Assembly (NCBI RefSeq): GCF_949628215.1
Contig: NC_134282.1
Span: 15,728,723-15,792,722, forward strand
DNA from: Phalacrocorax aristotelis
Taxonomy: Eukaryota > Chordata > Aves > Suliformes > Phalacrocoracidae
Length of the DNA: 64,000 bases
Direction: 5' to 3'
The translations under genes and the position numbers were made by a program. Below are positions 7,384 to 64,000 of this stretch, piece by piece; position 1 is the stretch's first letter; each line of letters opens with the position of its first letter. Under the pieces are notes generated by a model that was given only the letters and a program-made list of their open reading frames with translations, had not been told where the DNA came from and made no database searches.

Positions 7384-7559
7384 CTCAAGAGCGTGAGGTC
7401 AGGACATGCTCCTCTTGCTGGGCAGGCTCAGCACAAGGCACAGTGGTGAGGGGAGGTCTGGGATGTGCACAGGGCATCTGCTAGGGGATCGCAGGCAGGG
7501 AGATCATTAGGGCCTGGCACTGGCACACTCACACCGCGTGTGGAGCATCATCGGGTGGC

Positions 7560-32900: not shown

Positions 32901-35900
32901 AAGTTTTCTTCACTGCTGTAAATTCTAGTCCATTTGACAATGACTGTTTGTGTGTAGAGTAAGTATGACATGCTAAGAAAAAAAGTTTAAGCAATTATCA
33001 GCCTCCACAACTCACTAAAAAGTGACTAAGCCTATGACTTACCACAGAGGCCACAGAGCAGACCACTGTAATCAGCGGGCACAGACACTTCTGCATAGTG
33101 ATTTCCATCATATCTCACCCACAGTCCAAAGTCAGTTTCCAAGAGAACATATCCACCACTGCTTTGAATACTGAGCTTCTTTTCAATAAATACAGGTAGG
33201 TTCATTCTGCTGCCATTTACCTGTACAGCAAGTTGTAAAAGTTAGTGTGTGGCTGCTGGGACTCCTATGACTACCAGCAGCTAAAATAGATTAGTGAGAG
33301 ATACGGTCTTGTGCACAAGGGAACTGGAAGTAATTAAAGAACACTTCATCTGAGCAAATTTGTTGGACATCTCATTAAAAGGGGTACATTTAACAAAAAA
33401 AAGAGAAAGTTTGCTAGCAACTCTACAATCAGAGAAAATATTTCATAACCTGCATGTCAACCTAAATATATTATATATGTCTTTTAAACAAGCATTTTCT
33501 TACATTCACTTTCTTGTTTTTCAGCAAAGAAATCTGGCTGCCATAAACTTCCACTTGCACTGACTTCACATACGAGACTTTGGTGTTGCCTCTTCTGTGC
33601 TCATTTGTTGTGGACACATCAAAGTATGGAAGCCTCTCAGAGACATTGCACACTTTGGAGAGCGTGTAAGTGCAATTTCCCATGAAATGATGAACTCTGT
33701 GGTCAAAAGTGTTATAATGTGGATCCCCAGAGGCACTGCAGGAAGCACGTCCTGGGAAAAAAGAAAGACAGAATAATTCCCTCTGAATCTCTACCAGACT
33801 TCTGCAGTTGCTTTGCTCCCACTTCGTTTATTTTCCTTTGTAATTGCTGCTCAGATATAACAGTGATGGCATCAGTCAAGAACATTCCAAAGCCCAGCCC
33901 AGCCTCCCATCTTTGGACCCATAAAGAATCTGTACTCGTGTATCAGAAATCTATGCTAGAGGTTGGGGAAGAAATATAAACAAAAAGCTTTGATATTAAA
34001 AAAAAGCTTTGCTATTAAGAGATCATTACATAAAGTGGAGCAGTGAGTTTTCAGTGTCCATGTCTGAAAGGCTATTTATGATTAAATAGCAAGAATCTAC
34101 TCAAAAACTTTACAGGGCTGATTAGCCAGAATAGGCCATTGCAATACCAGCTATCTGGGGTTCTGTACTCATAACAGTTATGGAACTCCTATTGAACACT
34201 GCATACACCAGATGTCCTTTACACACTTTTAAAAAATATTTAAGTTAGTTAGCCAGTGATAATATGTAGAAATGGAGGTATAGAGTGTGTTTGCATTTGT
34301 GCCTGTGAGCTGGGTAGGGTTTTGACTGCTAATAAGAGAATCTCATTTTCAGCAAAAAAACAAATCTCCCATCAAGTCTTAGCACAGGTCAGCTTGCAGG
34401 TGTTTTATGGTGTTTATCAACAACAACAAAAAATAATGAAAAGCAGTCCTTACCTCATCTCTGCTTTTCAATGGCATGTTACAAAAATAGCTACATTTAT
34501 GGTTGCATCTACCTGTCAACCTTAACTCCTTGCACACAAACTATTAAATCTCCAGGAACTACATACATAACAATTATTTTAAAAAATGCAAAAGGCATCC
34601 AGACTGACTAGGAGAGCTAGCGTTCTTTTGTAATTAAGAAGTTGACACACGTAAAAGACTTAGTGCCTAAAGTTGGAGGAAAGAAGCAGTTAAAACTTAT
34701 CTAAACTGACATTTTAGTGTATTTCCTAAGTACTAAAAAACCAATAACAACAAGTCACTCTTTTCTGGGACCGTATAATTGGATTATATCCAAAATAAAA
34801 ACAAAATTTGGAAATGTAATTAAGTTTCAAAACACTACAAACAGAACCCATATGTATAACAGATGAAAATTTGCTATAGAAAAGGGTAATTTAAGTATTT
34901 ATGGACATGGTAAAGAAGTGTATGTGAGAGAAATATCAGGCAGCTGCTCCACTGTTACCGCAAACCCCAAAACTGTGGCAAAAGAGACCCAGGGCATGAC
35001 TTCCATAGTCACTACTCAGAAAGAGACCCAGAACTGAAAGACTGTGCAACAGTGTGATTGAGTGAGCAATAAAAAGCTAGGGCCCTCCAGCATAACATCT
35101 CTGTCACTTGCCTGTGGGACCTCGATTAAGAAAAATGAGTTGTTATGACGGGCAGAAAGAGATGGGGATGGGAAACAACAGTACGTGAGCCTAGTGGGGG
35201 ACTTGGTGCAGATGGTATGTATGAGGCTGCGTTGCAGTGCCTGATGGGGGGATCGGAGGTTTTGATGTTGATAGACGTAGCACAAGAAAGAGTTAGGGGA
35301 CATCTGTGCCAACATGGGATATTTCTTGCAGGCAGCTGGCCCACCCTTCCCAAAAACCCACACTGTAACCAGAGAGGCCCAGGGAAGTGATGGCACAGTG
35401 ACTCCTCATCAAAAACTCCAGCACTCAAGTGCTCTCTCCACCAGCATTGCTGGGTGATAAAAGGAGCCGCGCAGCCCCTTCACTACAGACACTCCGTGCC
35501 ATGGCCGCGTGCCTTAGAGGAAGTGAAATGAACAGATTCAACAAGCACCAGAAGATGGGGACGGAGCATGAGAGTACCTGAGATCGGAGTGGGACTTGGG
35601 GACGATGACGGTGTCTGCAGAGGCTTTGTTGTAGGAGCTGGCGAGGGGGTGGTGGGTTTTGGTGTCGCTGGACCTAGCACAAGAGACAGCTAGAGGAGAT
35701 CTGTGCCAACATGGCAGATTCGTTGCAGGCCACTGGCCCACCCTTCCCAGTCACCGCCCCCACCCTGGCAAAGGGATCAAAGGACAGGAATTCCACAGCA
35801 TCCCTGTCACGATGAGTCTCTCCACCCCAGGGCTGGCCCACCAGAGTATTAGGCAACACACGGAGCAACCCCCACCAGAGCTGCCCCACTCCTTGAATTT

Positions 35901-38900: not shown

Positions 38901-41900
38901 CTGCTCACCGTGATGGCACCTCCCGCTGCGCTCACCGGCAAGGTCTGGCGCACACTGTTCACCTAGGGCAGACACACCGCAATGGGCCCTGGACTGGTCC
39001 CTGGCCTCTCTGGGGTCTCCCGCCCCAGGGAAATCAGCCACCAGGCCGGGCACGGCAAACCGGTGCCCACGACGCCCTCACACCCAGACGCCCGCCCCTG
39101 CGGCTTGCAGAGCCACGTCTGCCTTCTGCACTCTCCAGAGGCCTCTGTTCAACACGGGCCACGTTCCCTGTTTGCCTCTTCCTCCTCCAACCCCTCCGGA
39201 AAGGAAAAACCAAGCAACCCAGTGGCTTCAGGGGAACCCGGCGGAGCCTGGGACGATGGAGATGTCTGGCACATGCCAGGCCCTGCCAGGAAAAGCCAGC
39301 CCTGCCTTGCAGCTGCGCCGCACTCGTGCCAGCCCCACTGCCTACCAGCACTTGGCTCGTCTGCTTCTTGACAATGGCAATGCGCTCTCCGTACACCTCA
39401 ACCAGGACTTCGCGCACATAGGACACTCTGGTGTTCCCACGATGCTCGTTCTTGGCCTCAACATTGAAGTAGGGCAGGGAGGTGCTGTTGGAGCACACTT
39501 TGGCCAGGGTGTAGGTGCAGTTGCCCATGAAGCTGTGCGTCACCTTGTCAAAGGTGTTGTAGTGAGGGTCACTGTGGACGTGGCAGGTGCCGTAGGATTG
39601 TTTGAGGCACTCGGGTTTCCCGCCCTGCACCCCGCAGTACTGGCCCGCGGGGCATGAGGCACTGGAGCACTGGACTTTGCTTCCCCGCGCAGGACACGTG
39701 CACTTGGAGGAGCAGGTGTTGTCCGTCCAGAACTCTGAGCCCACAGGGTAGTGCTGCCCGTTGTGCCAGCACCCGCACTGCTGGCTGGGTACGCATCGGT
39801 GATTGTAGAGCAGGTACCCGCTGTCGCACACACATCCCTCCACGCACGGCAGGCTGCAGGTAACAGGAGCCATTGGGTCAACACAGGTGGCAGGGCAGGC
39901 TGCAGCACAAGGCTCGTAGTGACTGTTGGCTGGACAGGTGATGGCTGACGAGACAGAAGACATGGCCATTACTTGGAGAACATAACACTTCTTGTGCTGT
40001 ATTTCCCCCTTTGCAAAATTAAGAACCTATATTTTCTCCGTGGTCTGCTTGGCTCCACGGGTGTCCTCAGCCACACCTGACCCAACGGAACGGAAAATGG
40101 TGCCTCTAATACTGACCACTGCCTGTAAATCCCCACGGCACGTAATAAAAATATCTCTAATTCCCCCAGATTTTCATTCCTACCCGGTGTGTTCCTAAAG
40201 AGCAACGATCTGTGGTATCACGCGCGGACTTACGGCAGAAGGTTGCGTTCCTCCACACAGGGATTTGGACACCAAGCGACCGGCAGGCATCCGCGTAGGA
40301 CTGCAAGCTCTTGCACAGGGCCTCGTGGTCCAGCCCCAGCTCACACAGGTCATAAAAGCAGGTGCCAAAGTAACCGTCGGGGCTCAGCACAGCGTGGCAC
40401 ATCTGAAACGGGCCTCTGGTGTCAGTGATGAGACCACAGAAGAGGCTGCTGGCAATGACTTGCTTGTCCGTCTCATTGCAGGCTGGGGTGGGGAGTGGTC
40501 CGGCTGAGCAGCTGTGGAAAGACGGGGAGAAGGGCCCTTGGGTCACCTGCGGGCTTCTCCTGGGGCTCCCCCATGCCCTTGCCCGACACGTCCCCAGCCC
40601 TGCTGGGGGGCCACACACACCTGCTGTCGTTGGACACCTGCCAGCTGTTGCCCAGGCTGGTGGAGTCTGGCTCCAGCACCCCTTCTGGGTTCAGGAAGTC
40701 ATCAGCTGCCATCCCGTTGTAGTTCCCACACATGCCACAAACCTTCTGCTGAAAGGTGCTCGGAAGCATCACCTCCACCCGATGGTTCCCATCAAACTTC
40801 ACTCTCAAGCCAAAGTCCGTCGTGACCATAGTGTAGAACCCACTGGATGAGACCTGCACGCCTGTGGATGGGGTGCAGGGCAGGACCTCTGCCACTCCGT
40901 TGACCTGAGAGGACAGAAACCAAGACAGGGTTGGAGCAACCCATTTGGCACAGCTCTCTGCTCCCGTACAGCTGCACCGCCTCTGCCCTTGTGCTTACCG
41001 TCACCACTCCACCCTTCCCCAGCCGTATCCGCTGGCCAGCCACATCGACATCCACGTATCGGACATAGGACACGCGAGTGTTGCCTCCCCTGTGCTCATT
41101 GGCTGCTTCCACGTTGAAGTAGGGCAGCGAGCTGTTGCTCTCGCACAGCTTCGAGAGGGTGTAGGTGCAGGTGCCCATGAAGTGGTGTAGCTGCTTGTCG
41201 AACGTGTGGTAGTGAGGGTCTCCTTCCACCACACAGGTCCCTGGCACTGGACAGACCAGAGGAAATGTTCAGTTAAGCACCTCCTGCCACCCAACACCGT
41301 GACCAGAGAGGCCCAGGGAAGTGATGGCACAGTGACTCCTCATCAAAAACTCCAGCACTCAAGTGCTCTCTCCACCAGCATTGCTGGGTGATAAAAGGAG
41401 CCACGCAGCCCCTTCACTACAGACACTCCGTGCCATGGCCACGTGCCTTAGAGGAAGTGAAATGAACAGATTCAACAAGCACCAGAAGATGGGGACGGAG
41501 CATGAGAGTACCTGAGATCGGAGTGGGACTTGGGGACGATGACGGTGTCTGCAGAGGCTTTGTTGTAGGAGCTGGCGAGGGGGTGGTGGGTTTTGGTGTC
41601 GCTGGACCTAGCACAAGAGACAGCTAGAGGAGATCTGTGCCAACATGGCAGATTCGTTGCAGGCCACTGGCCCACCCTTCCCAAACACCCCAAGACTGTG
41701 ACCGGAAAGGCCCAGGGCAGGGACCACAGAGCGTCATCTCAGAAAGAGCCCTGCTGCTCAGGGGCTCTGACATCAGCATACGTGGCTGACAAACTCAGAT
41801 TAGGCACTTCAGTACCCCTGCTCAGTGTCTTGGCCGTTAGCCTTGTAAAAAACAAAAAAAAATAGTGACTGCAGGCAGTGCCATTGCTCCAGTCTCCCAG

Positions 41901-44900
41901 AGGAAAGCCTGCTTGGGCGTAGGCTGCTTCACTGGCCTGCAGGGCACTCCAAAGACAACCTGTGCTCCTGCCTCTAGCACAGCCTGCCACCTCAGTTGGT
42001 GACATCTCTCAAGCTGCCCTTCCCCAGGCCAAGCCGTGTACCTGTGCAGTATCCCTTTTCAATGGAGACGTCATCCAATGCTATGTCGCTCCTGACATCT
42101 TCACCTACCATGCCCTCCAGGAGGATCTAAGGGAAGGGATAGTTCCCAGCATTAGCTCCTGCCACATGTGTCAAGTGCTAACACAAAGCATGGTTCATCT
42201 CTGATTGCAGCAAGAACCTGTGCCCTACCTGCATGTTTCCTCTGCTGTGCACGGTGACCTCTCCCAAGTTCCATTTGTCCCCTTTGTTTCCAGCATCTTT
42301 CCATTCCAGTGTTGATGTTTCATTGTGAACTACATACACACGCAGGGTCATTGTTTCAGCCGCTCCGTACATGTGATACCAGAAGCGGAAGCAGTGCGGT
42401 CCTTCGGAATTGCACACTGGGCTGACCAGATGAGCCACAGAGCCGGGGAGGGCATTGCTCCCTTGCAGGTAGAGGTAGTAGCCATCTGAAACAGAGCGTG
42501 AGCCACACTGTCACATGCATATCAAATCTAGACAAAGCAGCCAGGGACAACCCAAGCACAGTCGTGGGAGCACCCTCTGCTGCAGTTCAAGGCAGGCCAA
42601 GGGAGGCGAGAGGAAACGGAGGTCCTCTGCTAGCCACAACCCTCCTCAGCCCTGAGTCCACCTATGAACTGTGTTCTCTGGGCCATGGCAGCTGTATGGC
42701 TTGAAATGGGCAATAGCACCAGCTCCAAAGCATCACCACAATCCTTGCAGGGATCGGCAGCTTTGGGGGCCACTCATCACTGGCTTCTGGAGAAGCCAGC
42801 GCCTCCTAAAAGATAGACCCGTTCCTGTTCCCCTGAGAGAGCCGGGTCACCAAGCTTTACATTACTCTCAGCCTTGCAAGGCAGGTTCTTGCCTGTCCTA
42901 CAGGTACTACAGATGGATTCCCAGGGCTAGAAATCACCCTAAAGGAAGGCTCTGACTCGGGGGGAGACTGCCACAATCAGCTCTGGATTGAGGCCAGGAA
43001 ACATGTGGCCTGTATTTGCTGTTAGAAGAGGTTTGTCAACATCTTTCCAGGGACAACCCTCGGGCTGAAGGACCGCTCTGTAGTGATTGCTGTTCCTACC
43101 TCCGGTCGTGTGGTCAGAGGAGGGGCCGGTGTTTGGTGTGGGCGTTGGACCCTTGTTCCGTATCCAGTCACAGCTGCTGGAGCCTGCCTGGACCCACTCA
43201 CAGAAGTCACTGTCGAATGTGCAGGTGAAATAGCAGTCTGTTGTGGGAGCTGGATATGGTGCAGGAAGGGAAGCAAAGTTTTAGACTGAGGGAGGGGCCA
43301 CCCTCAGTGCCCCACAGGGCACACCTACATTCATGGCATGCTCATGGCCCAGTGAGGATGGCCGAACAAGAGGAAACGCATGAGCTGAGTGCCCAGCACA
43401 GCCAGTAAAAAACATGGATGGGAGACAATGGTACCTGTGCTTGTCCCAGGTGCTGGTGATGTTGTTGTATGTGGAGGCCGTGTTGAGGTGCCTGGCAAAG
43501 GGGCTGAGGTTGTAGGAGCTGCTGGATGTACAGTGAAACAAAGATGGAGAAGGTGTGTTTCACAATGAGGATTTCTTCCCAAATGGCCGTGTTTCCCGCT
43601 TCCCAGTCACCGCCCCCACCCTGGCAAAGGGATCGAAGGACAGGAATTCCACAGCATCCCTGTCACGATGAGTCTCTCCACCCCAGGGCTGGCCCACCAG
43701 AGTATTAGGCAACACACGGAGCAACCCCCACCAGAGCTGCCCCACTCCTTGAATTTGGGCCACAAAGGAGACCAACGGAACACTTACCACAGACAGTGCC
43801 AGCACTCCAGTCTCCCAGAGCAACACCTGCCGCAGCACAGGCCGCGGCATAGGCCCCCAGGTCATCGCAGAGCTGCTCCGTGCTGCCACTCGTGGCACAC
43901 TGGTCATACACACAGCTCTCAAAGTACGCCTTGGGCGGCAGAACGGCATGGCACGGGTTGAACGGGCCACTGAGTTGCAGGAGGATTGCACACTTGTCGT
44001 GAGCTGCCGCCTCCTCGGAGGGGGAGCAGGGCGCAGGAGGCCTGATGGCTGGGTCACACCTACGAAGCAGACAGACAGCCCTGAGCTCACAGCAGCCTGT
44101 GGACCCCAGACACACTTTTCCGGACCCCCTCCCCAGCCAAGAGCTCAGCCGCTGGGGTCCAGATCCCTCGCTAAGACAAGGCACCCACGGCTGTCGCTTG
44201 CAAGGGCGGGCAACGTGGCCCACGGTCACCATTCCCCTCCGTGGCATCAGGTGGACAGAAACAAATGGCCGAGGCAGTTGCGATCGCAACAGCTTGGGAG
44301 AAGCATCATGCCAAGGCCCCGGCCCACTCTCTCTCGGGTCAGGAACTGTGAGATGCAGCACATGGAGTGGGATGGCAGGGCCCCGCACAGAGGTCACCGA
44401 GGACCCCGGAGCAGCGTGCCTGTGCGGGGAGAGCACTGTGCACCCTGACCGCACGGAGGGGCCTGGACGGTGCCACAAGCAAGCCATCCTCGAGGGGAAA
44501 GGGGAACGGCCACACATCCGGCACCCAGCTGCAGGCAGGACATCCCACGGGTGGGTGGGTGGGTGGAGCAGAGAGGTGAGACGCAGGGATGATACGTCTG
44601 CGGCTGTGGAGCCTCTACGTGCTCTCACACACATTCCGGCAACTGCCTGTCTCCTCTCCCTTGGCCCACGCCTGCCATTACCAACCCTCCGTCCCTGTGC
44701 CCCTCACAGCTCCCCTCTCCCACGTTCCCTTTTGTCTGTCATCTATGCAACGGAACAAGCACTCACGGCCACTCGTCATCTGGCACCATCCAGCTGGCTC
44801 CAAAGTCATTGAAGTCGGGCACGACAAGCCCATCGGGTCGCATGAAGTCGTCCTGCTGGCTCCCAGTGTACGTCCCGCACAGCCCACACAGCTTGCCCTT

Positions 44901-53900: not shown

Positions 53901-56900
53901 TGCCTGTAAATCCCCACGGCACGTAATAAAAATATCTCTAATTCCCCCAGACTTTCATTCCTACCCGGTGTGTTCCTAAAGATCAACGATCCGTGGTATC
54001 ACGCGCGGACTTACGGCAGAAGGTTGCGTTCCTCCACACAGGGATTTGGACACCAAGCGACCGGCAGGCATCCGCGTAGGACTGCAAGCTCTTGCACAGG
54101 GCCTCGTGGTCCAGCCCCAGCTCACACAGGTCATAAAAGCAGGTGCCAAAGTAACCGTCGGGGCTCAGCACAGCGTGGCACATCTGAAACGGGCCTCTGG
54201 TGTCAGTGATGAGACCACAGAAGAGGCTGCTGGCAATGACTTGCTTGTCCGTCTCATTGCAGGCTGGGGTGGGGAGTGGTCCGGCTGAGCAGCTGTGGAA
54301 AGACGGGGAGAAGGGCCCTTGGGTCACCTGCGGGCTTCTCCTGGGGCTCCCCCATGCCCTTGCCCGACACGTCCCCAGCCCTGCTGGGGGGCCACACACA
54401 CCTGCTGTCGTTGGACACCTGCCAGCTGTTGCCCAGGCTGGTGGAGTCTGGCTCCAGCACCCCTTCTGGGTTCAGGAAGTCATCAGCTGCCATCCCGTTG
54501 TAGTTCCCACACATGCCACAAACCTTCTGCTGAAAGGTGCTCGGAAGCATCACCTCCACCCGATGGTTCCCATCAAACTTCACTCTCAAGCCAAAGTCCG
54601 TCGTGACCATAGTGTAGAACCCACTGGATGAGACCTGCACGCCTGCAGATGGGGTGCAGGGCAGGACCTCTGCCACTCCGTTGACCTGAGAGGACAGAAA
54701 CCAAGACAGGGTTGGAGCAACCCATTTGGCACAGCTCTCTGCTCCCGTACAGCTGCACCGCCTCTGCCCTTGTGCTTACCGTCACCACTCCACCCTTCCC
54801 CAGCCGTATCCGCTGGCCAGCCACATCGACATCCACGTATCGGACGTAGGACACGCGAGTGTTGCCTCCCCTGTGCTCATTGGCTGCTTCCACGTTGAAG
54901 TAGGGCAGCGAGCTGTTGCTCTCGCACAGCTTCGAGAGGGTGTAGGTGCAGGTGCCCATGAAGTGGTGTAGCTGCTTGTCGAACGTGTGGTAGTGAGGGT
55001 CTCCTTCCACCACACAGGTCCCTGGCACTGGACAGACCAGAGGAAATGTTCAGTTAAGCACCTCCTGCCACCCAACACCGTGACCAGAGAGGCCCAGGGA
55101 AGTGATGGCACAGTGACTCCTCATCAAAAACTCCAGCACTCAAGTGCTCTCTCCACCAGCATTGCTGGGTGATAAAAGGAGCCGCGCAGCCCCTTCACTA
55201 CAGACACTCCGTGCCATGGCCACGTGCCTTAGAGGAAGTGAAATGAACAGATTCAACAAGCACCAGAAGATGGGGACGGAGCATGAGAGTACCTGAGATC
55301 GGAGTGGGACTTGGGGACGATGACGGTGTCTGCAGAGGCTTTGTTGTAGGAGCTGGCGAGGGGGTGGTGGGTTTTGGTGTCGCTGGACCTAGCACAAGAG
55401 ACAGCTAGAGGAGATCTATGCCAACATGGCAGATTCGTTGCAGGCCACTGGCCCACCCTTCCCAGTCACCGCCCCCACCCTGGCAAAGGGATCGAAGGAC
55501 AGGAATTCCACAGCATCCCTGTCACGATGAGTCTCTCCACCCCAGGGCTGGCCCACCAGAGTATTAGGCAACACACGGAGCAACCTCCACCAGAGCTGCC
55601 CCACTGCTTGATTCTGGGCCACAAAGGAGACCAACGGAACACTTACCACAGACAGTGCCAGCACTCCAGTCTCCCAGAGCAACACCTGCCGCAGCACAGG
55701 CCGCGGCATAGGCCCCCAGGTCATCGCAGAGCTGCTCCGTGCTGCCACTCGTGGCACACTGGTCATACACACAGCTCTCAAAGTACGCCTTGGGCGGCAG
55801 AACGGCATGGCACGGGTTGAACGGGCCACTGAGTTGCAGGAGGATTGCACACTTGTCGTGAGCTGCCGCCTCCTCGGAGGGGGAGCAGGGCGCAGGAGGC
55901 CTGATGGCTGGGTCACACCTACGAAGCAGACAGACAGCCCTGAGCTCACAGCAGCCTGTGGACCCCAGACACACCTTTTCCGGACCCCCTCCCCAGCCAA
56001 GAGCTCAGCCGCTGGGGTCCAGATCCCTCGCTAAGACAAGGCACCCACGGCTGTCGCTTGCAAGGGCGGGCAACGCGGCCCACGGTCACCATTCCCCTCC
56101 GTGGCATCAGGTGGACAGAAACAAATGGCCGAGGCAGTTGCGATCGCAACAGCTTGGGAGAAGCATCATGCCAAGGCCCCGGCCCACTCTCTCTCGGGTC
56201 AGGAACTGTGAGATGCAGCACATGGAGTGGGATGGCAGGGCCCCGCACAGAGGTCACCGAGGACCCCGGAGCAGCGTGCCTGTGCGGGGAGAGCACTGTG
56301 CACCCTGACCGCACGGAGGGGCCTGGACGGTGCCACAAGCAAGCCATCCTCGAGGGGAAAGGGGAACGGCCACACATCCGGCACCCAGCTGCAGGCAGGA
56401 CATCCCACGGGTGGGTGGAGCAGAGAGGTGAGACGCAGGGATGATACGTCTGCGGCTGTGGAGCCTCTACGTGCTCTCACACGCATTCCGGCAACTGCCT
56501 GTCTCCTCTCCCTTGGCCCACGCCTGCCATTACCAACCCTCCGTCCCTGTGCCCCTCACAGCTCCCCTCTCCCACGTTCCCTTTTGTCTGTCATCTATGC
56601 AACGGAACAAGCACTCACGGCCACTCGTCATCTGGCACCATCCAGCTGGCTCCAAAGTCATTGAAGTCGGGCACGACAAGCCCATCGGGTCGCATGAAGT
56701 CGTCCTGCTGGCTCCCAGTGTACGTCCCGCACAGCCCACACAGCTTGCCCTTGTGCTTCTCAGACACCTTCACTAGGAGCTCATGGTCCCCATCGAACTG
56801 CAGCTGCAGGCCCAGCTTGGTAGAAACCCGCACATAGGCGCCGCTCAGGGAAATGTTCACACTGGGGGCAGGAGAAGCGGGCAGGGAGGCCAGAGCACCG

Positions 56901-59900
56901 TTGATCTGAATAATGGGGAAACAGAGAGAGACAGAAGCATAAAGAGATGCCCTCCACTGGGAGCTCACTGTTCTTCACTACAGTGGTGCCAGGGCCCAGC
57001 GAGTCAGAAGCACCGATGGCATGAGAAACCCTGCCCAGGCCTACGAGAACAGGAGCGACTCTACACGCGGCACACCGACGGCTCAGGAAAACAAGCCAAA
57101 AGTCTGTTGCTGCGCCAACAGCCCCGTATCTGCCCCGCTCAGAGCCCGGCCGTGCTCTTCTGTGAGCACGCCAGCAGGCTCAGGGAATATCAAGCTCTTG
57201 TTGGGGACAGAGTGGTACTTAATGGTGCCTAGGGCATCTGTTGTTCCCAGGTGTAAAAATGAGGGGCTTACGTAGACCGCCTTGTTCTCGCGCAGGGCGA
57301 TGTGGAGGCCTTCCATGGACAGCGCCACAGAGTTCAGAGCTGTCCAGCTCTGGCTGCCGCGATGTTTGTTGCGGGTGGTGACACTGAACCCAACGGAGGA
57401 GTTGTCACAGCCCGTCACCGCCGTGTAGTTGCAGGAGCCCTGGAAGTGGTGGAGCTTCCCGTCGAAGGTGCTGTAATGTGGGTCGCCGTAGATGTGGCAG
57501 AGAGCAGTGCTGGCTGGGTAACAGCCCCTCTGGCCATTCTGGATCTTGCAGACCTCGTCCTCACCACAGGACAACGCAGAGCAAACCATCTGGCCATTGT
57601 CTTCGCACCGGCACTGGCGACTGCAGTTCTCGCTCACATAGTACTCGCCTTTCTGTAGGCAGAGAGACAGCGAGCGTCAGCATATCGGGCAGGGAAGCAG
57701 AGGCGAGGGAGTGCCCTGGGAAGGGTGCAAGCCAGGGCAGGGTTTTCACTCACGCTGTAGTAGTTGCCCTCAAAGAGGCAGCCACAGTGGGCCTCGGGCA
57801 CACAGGTGTCTCCGCTGAGGAGGAAGCCAGAGGTACATGCACAGCCCTCCACGCAGGGCTTGGAGCAGTTCTGCGGGGCTTGTCGGTCAACACAGGTGGC
57901 CGGACAGCCGGTCATGCAAGGGTCGTAGTAGCTGTTGGCGGGGCACGGCAGGGCTGCAATGGGAAGGGGACAATTAGGACCAGCAAGCCTTCAAGGAAGG
58001 ACGACCTCCTGGGAAGGGCAAGACCAAAGACTTGCTTCGGCCAGAGGCTCTGGGCACGGGGAGCGGCACATCTCCCTTCTAGCCACCGCAAGGCAGGTAC
58101 TCACGGCAGAAGGTGGTATTCCTCCAGGGAAGAAGAGTCACGCCGGCTGCCTGGCATGCGTCAGCGTAGGCCTCCAGAGCAGCACACAGGACCTGCTGGC
58201 CGCCATTCAGGGAACAAAGGTCATAGAAGCAGGTCTCAAAGTAGCTCTGGGGGTTGATCACCCCGTGGCACCGCTCAAAAGAGCCAGGACTGGCAGTCAG
58301 CAAGCCACAGAACTGGTCCGATCGGTAGAGCTTCTCCTCTTCTGCACTGCAGGGTGGGGTGGGGACAGGGACACCGCAAGGGCTGTCACTGCCTGGGACC
58401 TGCCAGCTCTCCCCCAGAGCGTTGGAGTCTGCGGCTTGCTGCCCGTTGGGCATCATGTAATCGTCCTCTCTCCGGCTGTTGAAGTTCCCGCACATGCCAC
58501 AGGTCAGGTTGAAGTAGGTGGTGGGCACCTTCACCTCCACTGAGTGGTCGGTGTCGTAGGACACTCTGAGGTTGAAGTCGGTCTCCAGGACGATGTAGCG
58601 GCCGCTCCTGCTCACCGTGATGGCACCTCCCGCTGCGCTCACCGGCAAGGTCTGGCGCACACTGTTCACCTAGGGCAGACACACCGCAATGGGCCCTGGA
58701 CTGGTCCCTGGCCTCTCTGGGGTCTCCCGCCCCAGGGAAATCAGCCACCAGGCCGGGCACGGCAAACCGGTGCCCACGACGCCCTCACACCCAGACGCCC
58801 GCCCCTGCGGCTTGCAGAGCCACGTCTGCCTTCTGCACTCTCCAGAGGCCTCTGTTCAACACGGGCCACGTTCCCTGTTTGCCTCTTCCTCCTCCAACCC
58901 CTCCGGAAAGGAAAAACCAAGCAACCCAGTGGCTTCAGGGGAACCCGGCGGAGCCTGGGACGATGGAGATGTCTGGCACATGCCAGGCCCTGCCAGGAAA
59001 AGCCAGCCCTGCCTTGCAGCTGCGCCGCACTCGTGCCAGCCCCACTGCCTACCAGCACTTGGCTCGTCTGCTTCTTGACAATGGCAATGCGCTCTCCGTA
59101 CACCTCAACCAGGACTTCGCGCACATAGGACACTCTGGTGTTCCCACGATGCTCGTTCTTGGCCTCAACATTGAAGTAGGGCAGGGAGGTGCTGTTGGAG
59201 CACACTTTGGCCAGGGTGTAGGTGCAGTTGCCCATGAAGCTGTGCGTCACCTTGTCAAAGGTGTTGTAGTGAGGGTCACTGTGGACGTGGCAGGTGCCGT
59301 AGGATTGTTTGAGGCACTCGGGTTTCCCGCCCTGCACCCCGCAGTACTGGCCCGCGGGGCATGAGGCACTGGAGCACTGGACTTTGCTTCCCCGCGCAGG
59401 ACACGTGCACTTGGAGGAGCAGGTGTTGTCCGTCCAGAACTCTGAGCCCACAGGGTAGTGCTGCCCGTTGTGCCAGCACCCGCACTGCTGGCTGGGTACG
59501 CATCGGTGATTGTAGAGCAGGTACCCGCTGTCGCACACACATCCCTCCACGCACGGCAGGCTGCAGGTAACAGGAGCCATTGGGTCAACACAGGTGGCAG
59601 GGCAGGCTGCAGCACAAGGCTCGTAGTGACTGTTGGCTGGACAGGTGATGGCTGACGAGACAGAAGACATGGCCATTACTTGGAGAACATAACACTTCTT
59701 GTGCTGTATTTCCCCCTTTGCAAAATTAAGAACCTATATTTTCTCCGTGGTCTGCTTGGCTCCACGGGTGTCCTCAGCCACACCTGACCCAACGGAACGG
59801 AAAATGGTGCCTCTAATACTGACCACTGCCTGTAAATCCCCACGGCACGTAATAAAAATATCTCTAATTCCCCCAGACTTTCATTCCTACCCGGTGTGTT

Positions 59901-62900
59901 CCTAAAGAGCAACGATCTGTGGTATCACGCGCGGACTTACGGCAGAAGGTTGCGTTCCTCCACACAGGGATTTGGACACCAAGCGACTGGCAGGCATCTG
60001 CATAGGACTGCAAGCTCTTGCACAGGGCCTCGTGGTCCAGCCCCAGCTCACACAGGTCATAAAAGCAGGTGCCAAAGTAACCGTCGGGGCTCAGCACAGC
60101 GTGGCACATCTGAAACGGGCCTCTGGTGTCAGTGATGAGACCACAGAAGAGGCTGCTGGCAATGACTTGCTTGTCCGTCTCATTGCAGGCTGGGGTGGGG
60201 AGTGGTCCGGCTGAGCAGCTGTGGAAAGACGGGGAGAAGGGCCCTTGGGTCACCTGCGGGCTTCTCCTGGGGCTCCCCCATGCCCTTGCCCGACACGTCC
60301 CCAGCCCTGCTGGGGGGCCACACACACCTGCTGTCGTTGGACACCCGCCAGCTGTTGCCCAGGCTGGTGGAGTCTGGCTCCAGCACCCCTTCTGGGTTCA
60401 GGAAGTCATCAGCTGCCATCCCGTTGTAGTTCCCACACATGCCACAAACCTTCTGCTGAAAGGTGCTCGGAAGCATCACCTCCACCCGATGGTTCCCATC
60501 AAACTTCACTCTCAAGCCAAAGTCCGTCGTGACCATAGTGTAGAACCCACTGGATGAGACCTGCACGCCTGCGGATGGGGTGCAGGGCAGGACCTCTGCC
60601 ACTCCGTTGACCTGAGAGGACAGAAACCAAGACAGGGTTGGAGCAACCCATTTGGCACAGCTCTCTGCTCCCGTACAGCTGCACCGCCTCTGCCCTTGTG
60701 CTTACCGTCACCACTCCACCCTTCCCCAGCCGTATCCGCTGGCCAGCCACATCGACATCCACGTATCGGACGTAGGACACGCGAGTGTTGCCTCCCCTGT
60801 GCTCATTGGCTGCTTCCACGTTGAAGTAGGGCAGCGAGCTGTTGCTCTCGCACAGCTTCGAGAGGGTGTAGGTGCAGGTGCCCATGAAGTGGTGTAGCTG
60901 CTTGTCGAACGTGTGGTAGTGAGGGTCTCCTTCCACCACACAGGTCCCTGGCACTGGACAGACCAGAGGAAATGTTCAGTTAAGCACCTCCTGCCACCCA
61001 ACACCGTGACCAGAGAGGCCCAGGGAAGTGATGGCACAGTGACTCCTCATCAAAAACTCCAGCACTCAAGTGCTCTCTCCACCAGCATTGCTGGGTGATA
61101 AAAGGAGCCGCGCAGCCCCTTCACTACAGACACTCCGTGCCATGGCCACGTGCCTTAGAGGAAGTGAAATGAACAGATTCAACAAGCACCAGAAGATGGG
61201 GACGGAGCATGAGAGTACCTGAGATCGGAGTGGGACTTGGGGACGATGACGGTGTCTGCAGAGGCTTTGTTGTAGGAGCTGGCGAGGGGGTGGTGGGTTT
61301 TGGTGTCGCTGGACCTAGCACAAGAGACAGCTAGAGGAGATCTGTGCCAACATGGCAGATTCGTTGCAGGCCACTGGCCCACCCTTCCCAAACACCCCAA
61401 GACTGTGACCGGAAAGGCTCAGGGCAGGGACCACAGAGCGTCATCTCAGAAAGAGCCCTGCTGCTCAGGGGCTCTGACATCAGCATACGTGGCTGACAAA
61501 CTCAGATTAGGCACTTCAGTACCCCTGCTCAGTGTCTTGGCCGTTAGCCTTGTAAAAAACAAAAAAAAATAGTGACTGCAGGCAGTGCCATTGCTCCAGT
61601 CTCCCAGAGGAAAGCCTGCTTGGGCGTAGGCTGCTTCACTGGCCTGCCGGGCACTCCAAAGACAACCTGTGCTCCTGCCTCTAGCACAGCCTGCCACCTC
61701 AGTTGGTGACATCTCTCAAGCTGCCCTTCCCCAGGCCAAGCCGTGTACCTGTGCAGTATCCCTTTTCAATGGAGACGTCATCCAATGCTATGTCGCTCCT
61801 GACATCTTCACCTACCATGCCCTCCAGGAGGATCTAAGGGAAGGGATAGTTCCCAGCATTAGCTCCTGCCACATGTGTCAAGTGCTAACACAAAGCATGG
61901 TTCATCTCTGATTGCAGCAAGAACCTGTGCCCTACCTGCATGTTTCCTCTGCTGTGCACGGTGACCTCTCCCAAGTTCCATTTGTCCCCTTTGTTTCCAG
62001 CATCTTTCCATTCCAGTGTTGATGTTTCATTGTGAACTACATACACACGCAGGGTCATTGTTTCAGCCGCTCCGTACATGTGATACCAGAAGCGGAAGCA
62101 GTGCGGTCCTTCGGAATTGCACACTGGGCTGACCAGATGAGCCACAGAGCCGGGGAGGGCATTGCTCCCTTGCAGGTAGAGGTAGTAGCCATCTGAAACA
62201 GAGCGTGAGCCACACTGTCACATGCATATCAAATCTAGACAAAGCAGCCAGGGACAACCCAAGCACAGTCGTGGGAGCACCCTCTGCTGCAGTTCAAGGC
62301 AGGCCAAGGGAGGCGAGAGGAAACGGAGGTCCTCTGCTAGCCACAACCCTCCTCAGCCCTGAGTCCACCTATGAACTGTGTTCTCTGGGCCATGGCAGCT
62401 GTATGGCTTGAAATGGGCAATAGCACCAGCTCCAAAGCATCACCACAATCCTTGCAGGGATCGGCAGCTTTGGGGGCCACTCATCACTGGCTTCTGGAGA
62501 AGCCAGCGCCTCCTAAAAGATAGACCCGTTCCTGTTCCCCTGAGAGAGCCGGGTCACCAAGCTTTACATTACTCTCAGCCTTGCAAGGCAGGTTCTTGCC
62601 TGTCCTACAGGTACTACAGATGGATTCCCAGGGCTAGAAATCACCCTAAAGGAAGGCTCTGACTCGGGGGGAGACTGCCACAATCAGCTCTGGATTGAGG
62701 CCAGGAAACATGTGGCCTGTATTTGCTGTTAGAAGAGGTTTGTCAACATCTTTCCAGGGACAACCCTCGGGCTGAAGGACCGCTCTGTAGTGATTGCTGT
62801 TCCTACCTCCGGTCGTGTGGTCAGAGGAGGGGCCGGTGTTTGGTGTGGGCGTTGGACCCTTGTTCCGTATCCAGTCACAGCTGCTGGAGCCTGCCTGGAC

Positions 62901-64000
62901 CCACTCACAGAAGTCACTGTCGAATGTGCAGGTGAAATAGCAGTCTGTTGTGGGAGCTGGATATGGTGCAGGAAGGGAAGCAAAGTTTTAGACTGAGGGA
63001 GGGGCCACCCTCAGTGCCCCACAGGGCACACCTACATTCATGGCATGCTCATGGCCCAGTGAGGATGGCCGAACAAGAGGAAACGCATGAGCTGAGTGCC
63101 CAGCACAGCCAGTAAAAAACATGGATGGGAGACAATGGTACCTGTGCTTGTCCCAGGTGCTGGTGATGTTGTTGTATGTGGAGGCCGTGTTGAGGTGCCT
63201 GGCAAAGGGGCTGAGGTTGTAGGAGCTGCTGGATGTACAGTGAAACAAAGATGGAGAAGGTGTGTTTCACAATGAGGATTTCTTCCCAAATGGCCGTGTT
63301 TCCCGCTTCCCAGTCACCGCCCCCACCCTGGCAAAGGGATCGAAGGACAGGAATTCCACAGCATCCCTGTCACGATGAGTCTCTCCACCCCAGGGCTGGC
63401 CCACCAGAGTATTAGGCAACACACGGAGCAACCCCCACCAGAGCTGCCCCACTCCTTGAATTTGGGCCACAAAGGAGACCAACGGAACACTTACCACAGA
63501 CAGTGCCAGCACTCCAGTCTCCCAGAGCAACACCTGCCGCAGCACAGGCCGCGGCATAGGCCCCCAGGTCATCGCAGAGCTGCTCCGTGCTGCCACTCGT
63601 GGCACACTGGTCATACACACAGCTCTCAAAGTACGCCTTGGGCGGCAGAACGGCATGGCACGGGTTGAACGGGCCACTGAGTTGCAGGAGGATTGCACAC
63701 TTGTCGTGAGCTGCCGCCTCCTCGGAGGGGGAGCAGGGCGCAGGAGGCCTGATGGCTGGGTCACACCTACGAAGCAGACAGACAGCCCTGAGCTCACAGC
63801 AGCCTGTGGACCCCAGACACACTTTTCCGGACCCCCTCCCCAGCCAAGAGCTCAGCCGCTGGGGTCCAGATCCCTCGCTAAGACAAGGCACCCACGGCTG
63901 TCGCTTGCAAGGGCGGGCAACGTGGCCCACGGTCACCATTCCCCTCCGTGGCATCAGGTGGACAGAAACAAATGGCCGAGGCAGTTGCGATCGCAACAGC
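11798..64000 (-). CDS. ZAN: Giant zonadhesin-like gene (gene span; 73 exons traced, 5' end outside window)
   Basis: One reading frame with consistent splice phases can be followed through 73 exons. N- to C-terminal order inside the window is: C8 (unit 5, partial); Pro/Thr linker; MAM; three tandem units of [Pro/Thr linker, VWD-C8, TIL-VWC-VWD-C8, TIL-VWC-VWD-C8]; Pro/Thr linker; MAM; one more such unit; Pro/Thr linker; three complete VWD-C8-TIL-VWC modules; EGF; transmembrane helix; short basic tail. Zonadhesin is a sperm-membrane adhesion protein of mammals with MAM, mucin-like, VWD and EGF-TM parts in that order, so the architecture matches. FCGBP has similar triple-D repeats but no MAM, EGF or TM. 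About 6,070 residues are encoded here. Function in this lineage is not shown by the sequence, and the N-terminus and signal peptide are not in the window. That a single transcript joins all of this is inferred from phase, not from transcripts. Confidence 0.75.
12275..12368 (-). CDS. ZAN: Zonadhesin-like: transmembrane exon
   Basis: Starting after acceptor 'cccacag', the exon encodes an acidic lead (EDSDH) and then about 23 hydrophobic residues ([18 protein letters not shown]...), before the basic residues of the next exon. Donor GTAAAG, phase 2. This single-pass helix right after an EGF domain separates zonadhesin from the secreted relatives FCGBP and the gel-forming mucins. Confidence 0.9.
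12736..12867 (-). CDS. ZAN: Zonadhesin-like: EGF-like domain exon
   Basis: A 132-nt exon encodes six cysteines in EGF spacing ('[12 protein letters not shown]', then '[14 protein letters not shown]'). Both flanking phases are 1, the usual state for an EGF module. It immediately precedes the membrane exon. Confidence 0.9.
13040..13178 (-). CDS. ZAN: Zonadhesin-like: terminal VWC-like exon (module D3)
   Basis: 139 nt, starting at acceptor 'cttccag'. It encodes the short Cys-rich segment that follows each TIL ('[12 protein letters not shown]', then 'CGSDEICG' and 'GCYR'). Phase 0 in, phase 1 out. Confidence 0.82.
14140..14339 (-). CDS. ZAN: Zonadhesin-like: TIL domain (module D3)
   Basis: 200 nt. 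A trypsin-inhibitor-like Cys-rich domain, beginning '[10 protein letters not shown]' with '[15 protein letters not shown]' in the middle and ending '...YYE'. Donor GTACAG. Same length and phases (1 to 0) as the TIL exons of the repeat units. Confidence 0.88.
15256..16936 (-). CDS. ZAN: Zonadhesin-like: C8 domain of module D3, two exons
   Basis: Exons 16936-16760 (177 nt) and 15386-15256 (131 nt), phases 2-2 and 2-1. The C8 pattern is present ('[12 protein letters not shown]', 'SCLFDMC', '[13 protein letters not shown]', 'TTC'). An acidic, Ser-rich insert (DESEEEPDP) precedes the first C8 cysteine. In the amplified units upstream the same domain is one exon. Confidence 0.85.
17520..17575 (+). 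repeat. Purine-rich GGAA-type microsatellite
   Basis: The intron carries degenerate 'gacagacaga' followed by 'ggaaggaagggaggaaggg'-like repeats on the plus strand, directly upstream of a CR1 insertion. Confidence 0.8.
17648..19083 (+). mobile_element. CR1 LINE, about 1.4 kb, antisense in a zonadhesin-like intron
   Basis: The plus strand shows CR1 reverse-transcriptase fingers and palm ('[16 protein letters not shown]', '[10 protein letters not shown]', 'QGSILGP', 'FADDTKL'), the 3' domain, and the CR1 tail ending near 19083 ('gattccgtgattctgcgatc'). An in-frame TGA at 18103-18105 and frameshifts near 18465 and 18680 show it is dead. It sits in the 2.7 kb intron between exons 19628 and 16936, in opposite orientation to the host gene. 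Confidence 0.92.
19628..21848 (-). CDS. ZAN: Zonadhesin-like: VWD domain of module D3, three exons
   Basis: Exons 21848-21598, 20966-20837 and 19796-19628. The domain opens with '[10 protein letters not shown]' and contains the VWD core ('[14 protein letters not shown]'). The usual CGLCG motif reads E-GLCG here, so the first cysteine of the CXXC pair is missing. The end ('FGESWKV') matches other VWD domains. Phases 1-0, 0-1 and 1-2 join without a break. Confidence 0.87.
21005..21030. repeat. Perfect 26-bp palindrome in an intron
   Basis: The 13-base arm 'TGAAGCCAGATTT' is followed directly by its exact reverse complement. It lies about 40 bp upstream (in gene sense) of the 20966-20837 exon acceptor. 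Confidence 0.92.
23117..23258 (-). CDS. ZAN: Zonadhesin-like: VWC-like exon (module D2)
   Basis: 142 nt after acceptor 'tgtccag'. Cys-rich segment ('[15 protein letters not shown]', '[10 protein letters not shown]'). Phase 0 in, 1 out, equal to the module D3 equivalent. Confidence 0.82.
23720..23928 (-). CDS. ZAN: Zonadhesin-like: TIL domain (module D2)
   Basis: 209 nt. Starts '[13 protein letters not shown]', has '[16 protein letters not shown]' and ends '...NNYYS'. Acceptor 'cacacag', donor GTAAGT, phases 1 to 0. It is slightly longer than the other TIL exons because of an extra KTEK segment. Confidence 0.88.
25135..25403 (-). CDS. ZAN: Zonadhesin-like: C8 domain (module D2), single exon
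   Basis: 269 nt, phase 2 to 1. C8 signature '[13 protein letters not shown]', 'CIYDMC', 'YVDTCRNHG', 'WRNSTFC'. The acceptor was chosen as 'tcatgcag' at 25404 because only that joins in phase with the upstream exon; an alternative AG further up gives a stop. Confidence 0.85.
26109..27735 (-). CDS. ZAN: Zonadhesin-like: VWD domain of module D2, three exons
   Basis: Exons 27735-27494, 26852-26688 and 26233-26109. Opens with '[12 protein letters not shown]', continues with '[14 protein letters not shown]' and closes with '[10 protein letters not shown]'. The CGMCG motif reads HGMCG across the last exon junction, so the first cysteine of CXXC is replaced by His. Confidence 0.87.
28488..28632 (-). 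CDS. ZAN: Zonadhesin-like: VWC-like exon (module D1)
   Basis: 145 nt after acceptor 'cactcag'. Cys-rich ('[15 protein letters not shown]', 'CGVQEECSI', 'GCHSNG'). Phase 0 to 1. Confidence 0.82.
28930..29132 (-). CDS. ZAN: Zonadhesin-like: TIL domain (module D1), with a GC donor
   Basis: 203 nt, starting '[19 protein letters not shown]' and ending '...NQYHQ'. The only donor that keeps phase 0 is CAG|GCAAGT, the strong consensus for the rare GC-AG intron class. All other introns traced in this gene have GT donors. Confidence 0.85.
29690..29790. repeat. AT-rich tandem low-complexity repeat
   Basis: An imperfect array of 'tttagtaaa/aaatttagt' units in an intron. Several of the units are self-complementary. 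Confidence 0.85.
30013..30908 (-). CDS. ZAN: Zonadhesin-like: C8 domain (module D1), two exons
   Basis: Exons 30908-30817 (92 nt) and 30189-30013 (177 nt). Cysteines occur in '[16 protein letters not shown]', '[13 protein letters not shown]', 'NCVYDMC', 'AYAESC' and 'ATLC'. Donor GTAGTA, acceptor 'tacacag', then donor GTGAGT; phases 2-1 and 1-1. Confidence 0.85.
31379..33751 (-). CDS. ZAN: Zonadhesin-like: VWD domain of module D1, three exons
   Basis: Exons 33751-33504 (248 nt, the same length as the homologous exon of every repeat unit), 33220-33043 and 31487-31379. Motifs in order: '[10 protein letters not shown]', '[15 protein letters not shown]', 'CGLCG' split by an intron, and 'LGQSWLVPE'. 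The last donor is ATGTATGT; the nearer GTAACA would break the phase into the C8 exon. This module keeps the intact CXXC pair, unlike D2 and D3. Confidence 0.86.
32431..32490 (+). repeat. Polypyrimidine tract
   Basis: A degenerate T/C-only run ('ttcttttctttctttttc' and similar) on the plus strand within a 1.55 kb intron. Confidence 0.8.
33752..35367 (-). other. Intron joining the amplified array to the C-terminal modules, with a diverged linker relic
   Basis: This intron lies upstream (in gene sense) of exon 33751-33504. Most of it is AT-rich and featureless. At about 34975-35360 it contains a clearly diverged copy of the sequence around the Pro/Thr linker exon of the repeat units. For example, 'ctgtgccaacatgggatat' here matches 'ctgtgccaacatggcagat' in the units. 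The AG acceptor of the relic is mutated, so it is not an exon. Confidence 0.6.
35578..35673 (-). CDS. ZAN: Zonadhesin-like: Pro/Thr linker exon before the C-terminal modules
   Basis: 96 nt, phase 1 to 1, encoding 32 residues almost entirely Pro, Thr, Ser and Lys ('[18 protein letters not shown]...'). Such stretches are usually O-glycosylated spacers. The same exon recurs at 41512-41607, 49367-49462, 55293-55388 and 61219-61314, nearly identical each time. Confidence 0.82.
35932..38246 (-). CDS. ZAN: Unit 1 module Dc: TIL, VWC + VWD, C8 in four exons
   Basis: TIL exon 38246-38047 ('[10 protein letters not shown]', '[15 protein letters not shown]'). VWC + VWD exon 37945-37565 ('[12 protein letters not shown]'). 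VWD second half 37198-36912 ('[15 protein letters not shown]'). C8 exon 36203-35932 ('[11 protein letters not shown]', 'SCVYDQC', 'DWSAGTVC'). The C8 is followed directly by a Pro/Thr linker exon, so the TIL-VWC expected after a C8 is absent at this junction in every unit. Confidence 0.88.
36695..36711 (+). repeat. GGGT microsatellite in the Dc intron, unit-specific length
   Basis: Tandem GGGT runs on the plus strand. Units 1 and 2 (36.70 and 44.55 kb) carry two more GGGT repeats (8 bp) than units 3 and 4 (50.48 and 56.41 kb). Confidence 0.9.
38398..39944 (-). CDS. ZAN: Unit 1 module Db: TIL + VWC + VWD + C8 in two exons
   Basis: Exon 39944-39346 (599 nt) fuses TIL ('[10 protein letters not shown]', '[15 protein letters not shown]'), the VWC-like segment and the first half of VWD. 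Exon 38962-38398 (565 nt) fuses the second half of VWD ('[15 protein letters not shown]') and C8 ('[12 protein letters not shown]', 'CFYDLC', 'WRNTTFC'). The VWD opens with SDPHY, so the Gly of the usual GDPH motif is Ser; all four units share this. Homologous domains in the C-terminal part of the gene use twice as many exons. Confidence 0.88.
40234..41246 (-). CDS. ZAN: Unit 1 module Da: VWD + C8
   Basis: Exon 41246-40999 carries '[13 protein letters not shown]', with an intact GDPH motif, and the first half of VWD. Exon 40904-40621 carries the second half with 'CGMCGNYNG' and 'LGNSWQV'. Exon 40511-40234 carries the C8 ('[13 protein letters not shown]', 'CFYDLC', 'WRNATFC'). The C8 acceptor 'tttccacag' was chosen over a nearby 'ctcag' because only it keeps the frame. 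No TIL precedes this VWD; the Pro/Thr linker does. Confidence 0.88.
41868..41950 (-). pseudogene. Decayed C8 exon relic beside the MAM cassette
   Basis: Read on the minus strand, this gives '[19 protein letters not shown]', clearly homologous to the C8 end '[13 protein letters not shown]' of the units. The donor is destroyed (TGCAG|TCAC followed by a T run) and the upstream part of the domain is unrecognisable. The flanking MAM exon and linker exon are both phase 1, so the relic is skipped without loss of frame. Confidence 0.75.
42042..43521 (-). CDS. ZAN: MAM cassette 1: Pro/Thr linker and MAM domain, four exons
   Basis: Exons 43521-43435 (87 nt, Pro/Thr/Ser-rich '[16 protein letters not shown]'), 43249-43100 (MAM start, '[12 protein letters not shown]' and 'CDWIRNKG'), 42485-42229 (MAM core, '[15 protein letters not shown]' and '[11 protein letters not shown]') and 42126-42042 (MAM end, '[14 protein letters not shown]'). 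Total 579 nt, phases 1-1, 1-1, 1-0 and 0-1, so the cassette is frame-neutral. MAM domains are extracellular adhesion modules. In mammalian zonadhesin they are N-terminal; here one is embedded inside the VWD array. Confidence 0.88.
43788..49462 (-). CDS. ZAN: Array unit 2: linker + three VWD-C8 modules, ten exons
   Basis: Exons in gene order: 49462-49367, 49101-48854, 48759-48476, 48366-48089, 47799-47201, 46817-46253, 46101-45902, 45800-45420, 45053-44767 and 44059-43788. Domain content and phases equal unit 1. Markers: 'LAPYNC' in the Db TIL (as unit 3), 'LYQSD' (as unit 1), long GGGT tract (as unit 1) and one fewer C near 44115. This unit lies just upstream of MAM cassette 1. Its C8-side intron variants ('caacgtggcc' at 44213, single-C deletion) recur in the partial unit 5, which also precedes a MAM cassette. 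Confidence 0.9.
49721..55388 (-). CDS. ZAN: Array unit 3: linker + three VWD-C8 modules, ten exons
   Basis: Exons in gene order: 55388-55293, 55027-54780, 54685-54402, 54292-54015, 53725-53127, 52743-52179, 52027-51828, 51726-51346, 50979-50693 and 49992-49721. Open and in phase throughout. Markers: 'LAPYNC' (as unit 2), 'LYRSD' (as unit 4), short GGGT tract (as unit 4) and a synonymous change in the Db C8 at 52340. It joins unit 2 directly through a linker with no MAM cassette. Confidence 0.9.
55647..61314 (-). CDS. ZAN: Array unit 4: linker + three VWD-C8 modules, ten exons
   Basis: Exons in gene order: 61314-61219, 60953-60706, 60611-60328, 60218-59941, 59651-59053, 58669-58105, 57953-57754, 57652-57272, 56905-56619 and 55918-55647. 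Markers: 'MAPVTC' in the Db TIL (as unit 1), but 'LYRSD' and the short GGGT tract (as unit 3). One Q-to-R change occurs in 'NSWRVS' (Da), and a cluster of intron differences occurs just after the last C8 (about 55584-55617). It follows MAM cassette 2. Confidence 0.9.
61575..61657 (-). pseudogene. Second copy of the decayed C8 relic
   Basis: This lies exactly 19,707 bp from the relic at 41868 and is nearly identical, including the lost donor and T run. A single difference in the flanking sequence (about 61646) replaces Leu by Arg in the conceptual reading. Confidence 0.75.
61749..63228 (-). CDS. ZAN: MAM cassette 2: Pro/Thr linker and MAM domain, four exons
   Basis: Exons 63228-63142, 62956-62807, 62192-61936 and 61833-61749, each exactly 19,707 bp above those of cassette 1 and with the same phases. 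The MAM coding sequence appears identical to cassette 1 by eye. It separates the last C8 of unit 5 from unit 4. Confidence 0.88.
63495..63766 (-). CDS. ZAN: Array unit 5 (partial): final C8 exon
   Basis: The C8 exon of module Dc ('[11 protein letters not shown]', 'SCVYDQC', 'DWSAGTVC') with donor GTAAGT, phase 1 out. The rest of the unit lies to the right of the window. Intron sequence up to 64000 matches unit 2, so the array continues. Confidence 0.88.

Follow-up and report, generated by a model that had tools for sequence, protein, structure and literature searches.

Near-identical multi-exon units in tandem within an avian zonadhesin-like gene

A gene on the minus strand of a Phalacrocorax aristotelis contig carries, within its coding region, a tandem array of five copies (one of them partial) of a 5.93-kb unit of nine exons, together with two MAM cassettes of about 1.9 kb. 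Read in the sense of the gene, their order in the assembly is U5-MAM-U4-U3-U2-MAM-U1. Units of several kilobases lie in tandem inside one gene and are highly identical in both exons and introns, as in an intragenic tandem segmental duplication. We consider it probable that the array is of this kind, built from a frame-neutral module in an avian zonadhesin-like gene of the FCGBP/ZAN family, with crossing-over and gene conversion acting among the copies. The structure of the array, its reading frame, the site patterns, the constraint on its exons and the step in GC content at its edges are direct observations; from these we infer mechanism, age, function and copy number in living birds.

The window, the whole stretch of DNA that was analysed, is 64,000 nucleotides long (15,728,723-15,792,722 on contig C7). 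We joined to it 80 kb above and 40 kb below, giving 184 kb without an N; all coordinates are those of the window, continued past 64,000 into the flank (Table 1). The initial annotation, made from the window, proposed a self-comparison of window and flanks, and this yields one continuous array. As stated there, the array leaves the window; its end lies 3.5 kb further on. Between 35,357 and 64,000, self-alignment finds 11.9 kb at 99.5% identity (offset 5,933), 8.9 kb at 99.6% (offset 19,715) and 6.3 kb at 99.3%; kilobases at 99% identity rule out a chance repeat. The whole assembly (1.28 Gb in 352 contigs) was searched with two DNA probes, whose counts for repeats are lower bounds. A 501-bp unit probe hits five sites, all in the array on C7, with start-to-start steps of 7,855, 5,926, 5,926 and 7,847 bp. 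The first three match to the base the spacings given earlier, and the fourth lies beyond the window. A MAM-cassette probe hits two sites, both in the array, and neither search of the assembly found copies on other contigs. Each of the two long steps holds a 1,915-bp MAM cassette.

Table 1. Positions of the array, its modules and the remaining parts of the gene, in window coordinates.
Feature	Position	Strand	Remarks
Tandem array	35,356-64,000 in window, on to 67,483 in flank (32,128 bp)	-	Self-alignment; GC step at both edges
Unit U1	35,743-41,683	-	5,941 bp, 9 exons, 3,135 bp coding
Unit U2	43,599-49,538	-	Unit alignment
Unit U3	49,532-55,464	-	Unit alignment
Unit U4	55,458-61,390	-	Unit alignment
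Unit U5, partial	63,306-64,000, on to 67,483	-	5' edge inside the D2 TIL exon
PTS (mucin-like) 96-bp linker exon, in frame	35,578-35,673	-	One per unit, 32 aa
PTS linker exon, other copies	41,512-41,607, 49,367-49,462, 55,293-55,388, 61,219-61,314	-	
MAM cassette 1	41,684-43,598	-	Mucin-like (PTS) exon 43,521-43,435
Cassette 1 MAM exons	43,249-43,100, 42,485-42,229, 42,126-42,042	-	
C8-like relic, 3' end of MAM cassette	41,871-41,981	-	Own HMM 1.6e-3
MAM cassette 2	61,391-63,305	-	Same coding sequence as cassette 1; 2 of 1,915 bp differ
Older copy of unit-start intron	35,160-35,352	-	72-74% identity, just outside 3' array edge
MAM domain, upstream of N-terminal D1	78.1-76.2 kb	-	Pfam 0.012 (first exon, below cut-off) and 1.2e-14
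Older N-terminal D1	72.4-70.0 kb	-	Diverged, upstream of array
C-terminal block, three diverged D assemblies	13,040-33,751	-	19 exons modelled, some borders approximate
EGF-like exon	12,736-12,867	-	Pfam EGF 1.2e-4, 22.7 bits vs cut-off 21.5; spliceable in frame
Transmembrane exon	12,275-12,368	-	Hydropathy 2.93 over 19 residues; spliceable in frame

The initial annotation described a satellite-type higher-order repeat with an exact period of 19,707 bp. This figure is the sum of three steps (7,855 + 5,926 + 5,926) and holds as the distance between the MAM cassettes, whose exons recur from 43,244 to 62,951 and from 42,510 to 62,217. It does not hold as a fully repeated period, the array being 1.63 times that length, nor is it constant: at the outer ends the offset is 19,714-19,715, owing to an 8-bp indel between U1 and U4. 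In a satellite higher-order repeat, diverged monomers make up a larger unit that is itself repeated almost identically. Here the single units are already about 99.5% alike, pairs of them differing at 0.24-0.54% of sites, and the 19.7-kb arrangement spans only 1.63 copies; these are therefore units with an occasional extra cassette, and the satellite-type organisation is rejected. A small number of multi-exon units set between two MAM cassettes would account for the pattern. The initial annotation is roughly correct in that introns are as alike as exons: substitutions occur in 20 of the 2,702 columns outside exons and in 29 of the 3,231 within them, counts that omit indels (one of 8 bp, one of 1 bp). 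Nearly half of the exonic variable columns (14 of 29) fall in one 72-bp cluster.

All nine exons have AG/GT borders in each of the four full units. Every unit encodes three VWD-C8 assemblies, D1, D2 and D3 (1,045 aa), of which D2 and D3 are each preceded by TIL and TILa. After the third C8 comes a PTS-rich exon of 96 bp, which leads into the next D1; at two junctions the cassette precedes the PTS exon. The peptide encoded by the five PTS exons is identical. Unit and MAM cassette are each bounded by phase 1 on both sides; whole copies can thus be gained or lost without a frameshift, and one extra unit adds 1,077 aa. The 5' edge of the array also falls in frame, inside a coding TIL exon. In a tree of 15 of the 18 D assemblies (U2's three were left out, and the three C-terminal ones form long branches), the array's D1, D2 and D3 separate as distinct types. 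In D2, one 626-bp exon (53,752-53,127 and copies) covers TIL, TILa and the first half of VWD, whereas a separate TIL exon precedes D3, an apparent intron loss.

Our model of the product, from the N-terminal D1 to the transmembrane exon, has 79 exons with AG/GT borders and 20,869 bp that encode 6,955 aa without a stop; for a model of this span, the length is a minimum. The array exons were set by hand on one unit and transferred to the other units by alignment. In the C-terminal block and the N-terminal D1, a script chose the splice sites under the condition that the frame stay continuous, which in part guarantees the open frame there; ahead of the first C-terminal C8 the model contains a hydrophobic stretch, which points to one or more misplaced borders in that region. 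Judged from the open frame, the exons probably form a single transcription unit, and the predicted product contains 18 D assemblies in total. Introns in the C-terminal block are long and AT-rich, and one of them contains an AT-rich tandem repeat (29,690-29,787; 41-bp period among others). The gene has the C-terminal end of the zonadhesin type, an EGF domain and a transmembrane helix. Both exons can be spliced in frame, in agreement with the earlier description of a coding, zonadhesin-like gene for a membrane protein. The sauropsid origin named there also agrees with the assembly's beta-globin, which as a query scores 205-218 bits against twelve PDB chains, all of birds, and 186 bits against the next, of a tortoise.

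Which gene is it? One neighbour is MB21D2 (match to PDB 7lt1, 1.8e-21). The other, on the minus strand, is an LRAT-domain gene with two LRAT-domain exons at 6,324-7,398. We take this second neighbour to be PLAAT1, and we assume that MB21D2 and an LRAT-domain gene adjoin on human 3q29 and on chicken chromosome 9. From these assumed neighbour positions, the gene is likely the ortholog of the FCGBP-like gene on chicken chromosome 9. Beside the LRAT-domain exons lies a GC-rich stretch (about 7.6-8.7 kb), both strands of which have long open frames. Another feature of this end of the window is an inverted pair of 440 bp (1,232-1,670 and 6,753-7,190; 95.7% identity), the translation of which resembles the end of a retrotransposon ORF, presumably of a CR1-like element. 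Reverse-transcriptase-like ORFs also occur at 10.1-11.1 and 17.7-18.7 kb.

The chicken gene (XP_422715.1), predicted to encode 4,770 aa with three MAM domains, was reported in 2005 as a gene of MAM, mucin and VWD parts (Hunt et al. 2005, PMC1325057). The gene described here resembles it in its MAM-mucin-TIL-VWD series and in having three MAM domains: one upstream of the N-terminal D1, where the count is that of our own two-exon HMMs, and the two cassettes, both followed by PTS exons. The chicken tree also has a three-D periodicity, pairing VWD2/5, VWD3/6 and, in a data-not-shown remark, VWD1/4 (PMC1325057). The two differ in length, at least 6,955 aa being modelled here, and a near-identical array is not described in the accessible part of that report. 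If chicken has about twelve D assemblies, an estimate that we base on length, the present gene has two units more.

Human FCGBP has a block of three D assemblies in tandem, at least 99% identical in protein (PMC10880436), and its 15.7-kb unit, present three times, lies wholly within the gene (PMC2588610). It differs in being secreted and in having three copies and no MAM among its listed domains (PMC9354016), whereas the 5.9-kb unit of the bird gene is present five times, once in part, along with MAM cassettes and an EGF and transmembrane end; its MAM domains thus set it apart from FCGBP as listed in that source. Large coding units are likewise repeated within one gene in LPA (KIV-2) and CR1 (PMC11462820, PMC2588610) and have been duplicated intragenically in nebulin and titin (PMC9142044), although these proteins are unrelated to the bird gene. 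For LPA, nebulin and titin, copy number differs among people (PMC11462820, PMC9142044, PMC2588610). Zebrafish zan has three blocks of about 5 kb with tandem, phase-1 symmetrical D-domain exons, but these blocks are 85-87% identical (PMC1325057). Mouse Zan also grew in tandem, to 20 D3p cassettes, which are two-exon partial domains (PMC9275260).

Roberts et al. (2022) define Zan by MAM, mucin and tandem VWD domains in that order and by a locus between Ephb4 and Epo (PMC9275260). MAM, mucin and VWD parts are all present in the bird gene, and MAM and PTS exons recur between VWD blocks too. By locus the gene is not Zan: the closest genes recognised are MB21D2 and the LRAT-domain gene, not Ephb4 or Epo. 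The same source, in its accessible part, found no Zan or ZanL gene in birds (PMC9275260), a statement on which our finding bears, since at another locus a bird does have a gene that combines MAM, mucin-like, VWD, EGF and transmembrane parts. We found no earlier account of an array of this sort for a zonadhesin-like gene of a bird in the accessible open-licence PMC literature, and zonadhesin is absent from the main text, as available, of a duplication survey of 117 vertebrates (PMC13431229). Coding arrays of this build are already known from human FCGBP and LPA, and the bird gene is a further example. It is of specialist interest for its GC island, its exported tract and its optional cassette. 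Features usually seen apart meet at this one locus: modules that keep the frame, an exon cassette that is optional, copies that are mosaics, a conversion tract beyond the array and a step in base composition at its edges. If copy number varies, the locus offers a testable link between intragenic recombination and how long a surface adhesion protein becomes.

How are the copies related to one another? U1 is closest to U4 (0.29%), and U2 is closest to U3 and U5 (0.24% each). The grouping shifts along the unit: an 8-bp deletion is common to U3, U4 and U5, and other markers are common to U2 and U5. With the 72-bp cluster left out, 14 of the 28 pairs among eight informative sites are incompatible under the four-gamete test, some of them perhaps through recurrent mutation. 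The copies look like mosaics of one another. The cluster itself lies in the TIL exon of D2 (39,860-39,931 and matching columns), where 14 of 72 columns vary. It mostly splits U1 and U4 from U2, U3 and U5, a few of its sites being older sequence at the U5 edge. No donor of the U1/U4 version was found in the 184 kb, where, apart from the five D2 TIL exons, nothing matches better than 73.5% over 68 bp. The units show purifying selection. Leaving out the cluster, we count nine synonymous and five nonsynonymous variable sites on 714 and 2,418 sites, a ratio of 0.16 (Fisher p = 0.001); with the cluster, eight of whose 14 sites are nonsynonymous, the counts are 15 and 13 (ratio 0.26, p = 0.0004). Full units differ pairwise at 1 to 7 of 1,044 residues.

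The base composition of the array sets it apart from the rest of the gene. Introns in the units are 60.4-60.9% GC, against 40.2% in the C-terminal block (20 introns, none above 46%) and 38.8% in the N-terminal part (3 introns). GC3 is 0.75-0.78 in the VWD and C8 stretches of the units and 0.44-0.53 outside the array. The step occurs within about 0.5-1 kb of both array edges. Other figures tell against such an island: the MAM cassette, at 54%, is below the units, the flanks are 44-47% GC overall, and a 61% stretch lies at 6-8 kb, outside the gene. Differences private to one copy comprise 19 GC-to-AT and 5 AT-to-GC changes, a spectrum itself without GC bias; mutation alone would therefore not hold 60% GC (a rough estimate gives 0.28). 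The simplest reading is long-running GC-biased gene conversion, and descent from a GC-rich block is possible. GC-biased conversion has been described between the near-identical copies of X-chromosome palindromes (PMC8981503). Outside the array, the N-terminal D1 exon contains 147 bp of exact array D1 exon sequence (72,376-72,230), although the rest of this exon and its introns have diverged from the array. The tract looks like ectopic gene conversion.

The MAM cassette codes for 193 aa in one PTS and three MAM exons. Its 3' end is a diverged relative of the D3 C8 exon and the next intron (alignment score 81; none of 200 shuffles scored above 40); no Pfam family matched the C8-like relic there. 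CTTCCCA stands at both edges of both cassettes and once at each of the three junctions without MAM, and this 7-bp match sits at the aligned place in paralogous introns. The alignment of the older intron copy (35,160-35,390) crosses the low edge of the cassette, to 41,723. Most likely, MAM-D-D-D was the older module and MAM was lost by recombination at the 7-bp match. We take this to be the older unit because of the older intron copy, the C8 relic, the N-terminal MAM domain and the three MAM domains in chicken.

Under the explanation that we favour, copies would be gained by unequal crossing-over between aligned modules, and gene conversion would keep them alike. Conversion is suggested by the mosaic site patterns, by the exact tract in an outside exon and by a GC island that matches the array. 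The MAM-less junctions may come from recombination at the 7-bp match inside paralogous introns, most likely as cassette loss, and would then have spread among units. A larger reading is possible, and we put it forward tentatively: the array may be a long-lived, self-homogenising recombination island in which GC-biased conversion raised its exons and introns to 60% GC, exports tracts to neighbouring single-copy exons and shifts the number of 1,077-aa units, so that the surface protein would differ in length among individual birds or species. Against such a history stands a young burst, a recent amplification from one GC-rich block without long homogenisation. That copies are about 99.5% alike, introns included, and that private changes drift to AT would suit a burst, but we find it doubtful given the conflicting patterns at half of the site pairs, the 147-bp tract common to the N-terminal exon and a GC3 far above that of the gene's other D exons. 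An array that is non-coding or decaying, outside any working protein, is scarcely credible: its exons have no stops, all have AG/GT borders, and nonsynonymous changes are under-represented.

The cassette might also be a newcomer, inserted by exon shuffling into ancestral MAM-less units and later duplicated. Its flanking 7-bp direct repeats do resemble a target-site duplication and its GC is below that of the units; the older diverged intron copy that aligns across its low edge, the C8 relic at its end, the diverged MAM upstream of the N-terminal D1 and the three MAM domains of the chicken gene (PMC1325057) nevertheless make this order of events unlikely. Several points weigh against intragenic duplication as we have described it, among them that copy number and order are those of the assembly, that a copy divergence of 0.24-0.54% is within the allelic range, that the private changes show no GC bias and that 8 of the 14 sites in the TIL cluster are nonsynonymous. 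The assembly may have laid two haplotypes end to end, part of the array (most likely one MAM cassette and its neighbours) then being false. The small distances between U1 and U4 and between U2 and U5, the two differences between cassettes and an arrangement of 1.63 copies would suit this error. It is nonetheless quite improbable, for all five units carry private sites (some of U5's at its edge). A diploid has at most two versions of a locus, so five distinct units require at least three real ones if the base calls are right. Moreover, the 184 kb has no N, the two DNA searches found no copies on other contigs, the frame is open through the array, and the number of MAM domains equals that of chicken (PMC1325057). 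The GC island matches the array edges, and false joining of a single-copy gene would not make one. The concern in the initial annotation about an assembly artefact is thus weakened. The second MAM cassette is the least secure part of the array and, with it, the feature that had been called higher-order.

From its sequence we predict that the gene encodes a type-I membrane protein of great length, which would serve in adhesion or in a mucus barrier. The closest solved structure to the D1 assembly is FCGBP (PDB 8rde; 1,021 bits over six stretches). The modelled product contains 13 GDPH and 5 SDPH motifs; within the array, GDPH occurs in D1 and D3 and SDPH in D2, in a comparison of the units other than U2. 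In many VWD domains, GDPH is cut between Asp and Pro (PMC10880436), and by analogy we predict cleavage in D1 and D3 but not in D2. Expression of zebrafish zan and of salmon zlg is found in the gut and not in the testis (PMC1325057), which leads us to favour a role in epithelial or mucus-layer adhesion over one in sperm-egg binding. The assembly has other VWD-rich loci at C112:12,625-82,926, with some very long open frames, and C22:3,804,406-3,815,231; their VWD-type matches are 24-57% identical to D1, and the loci are possibly FCGBP-like genes.
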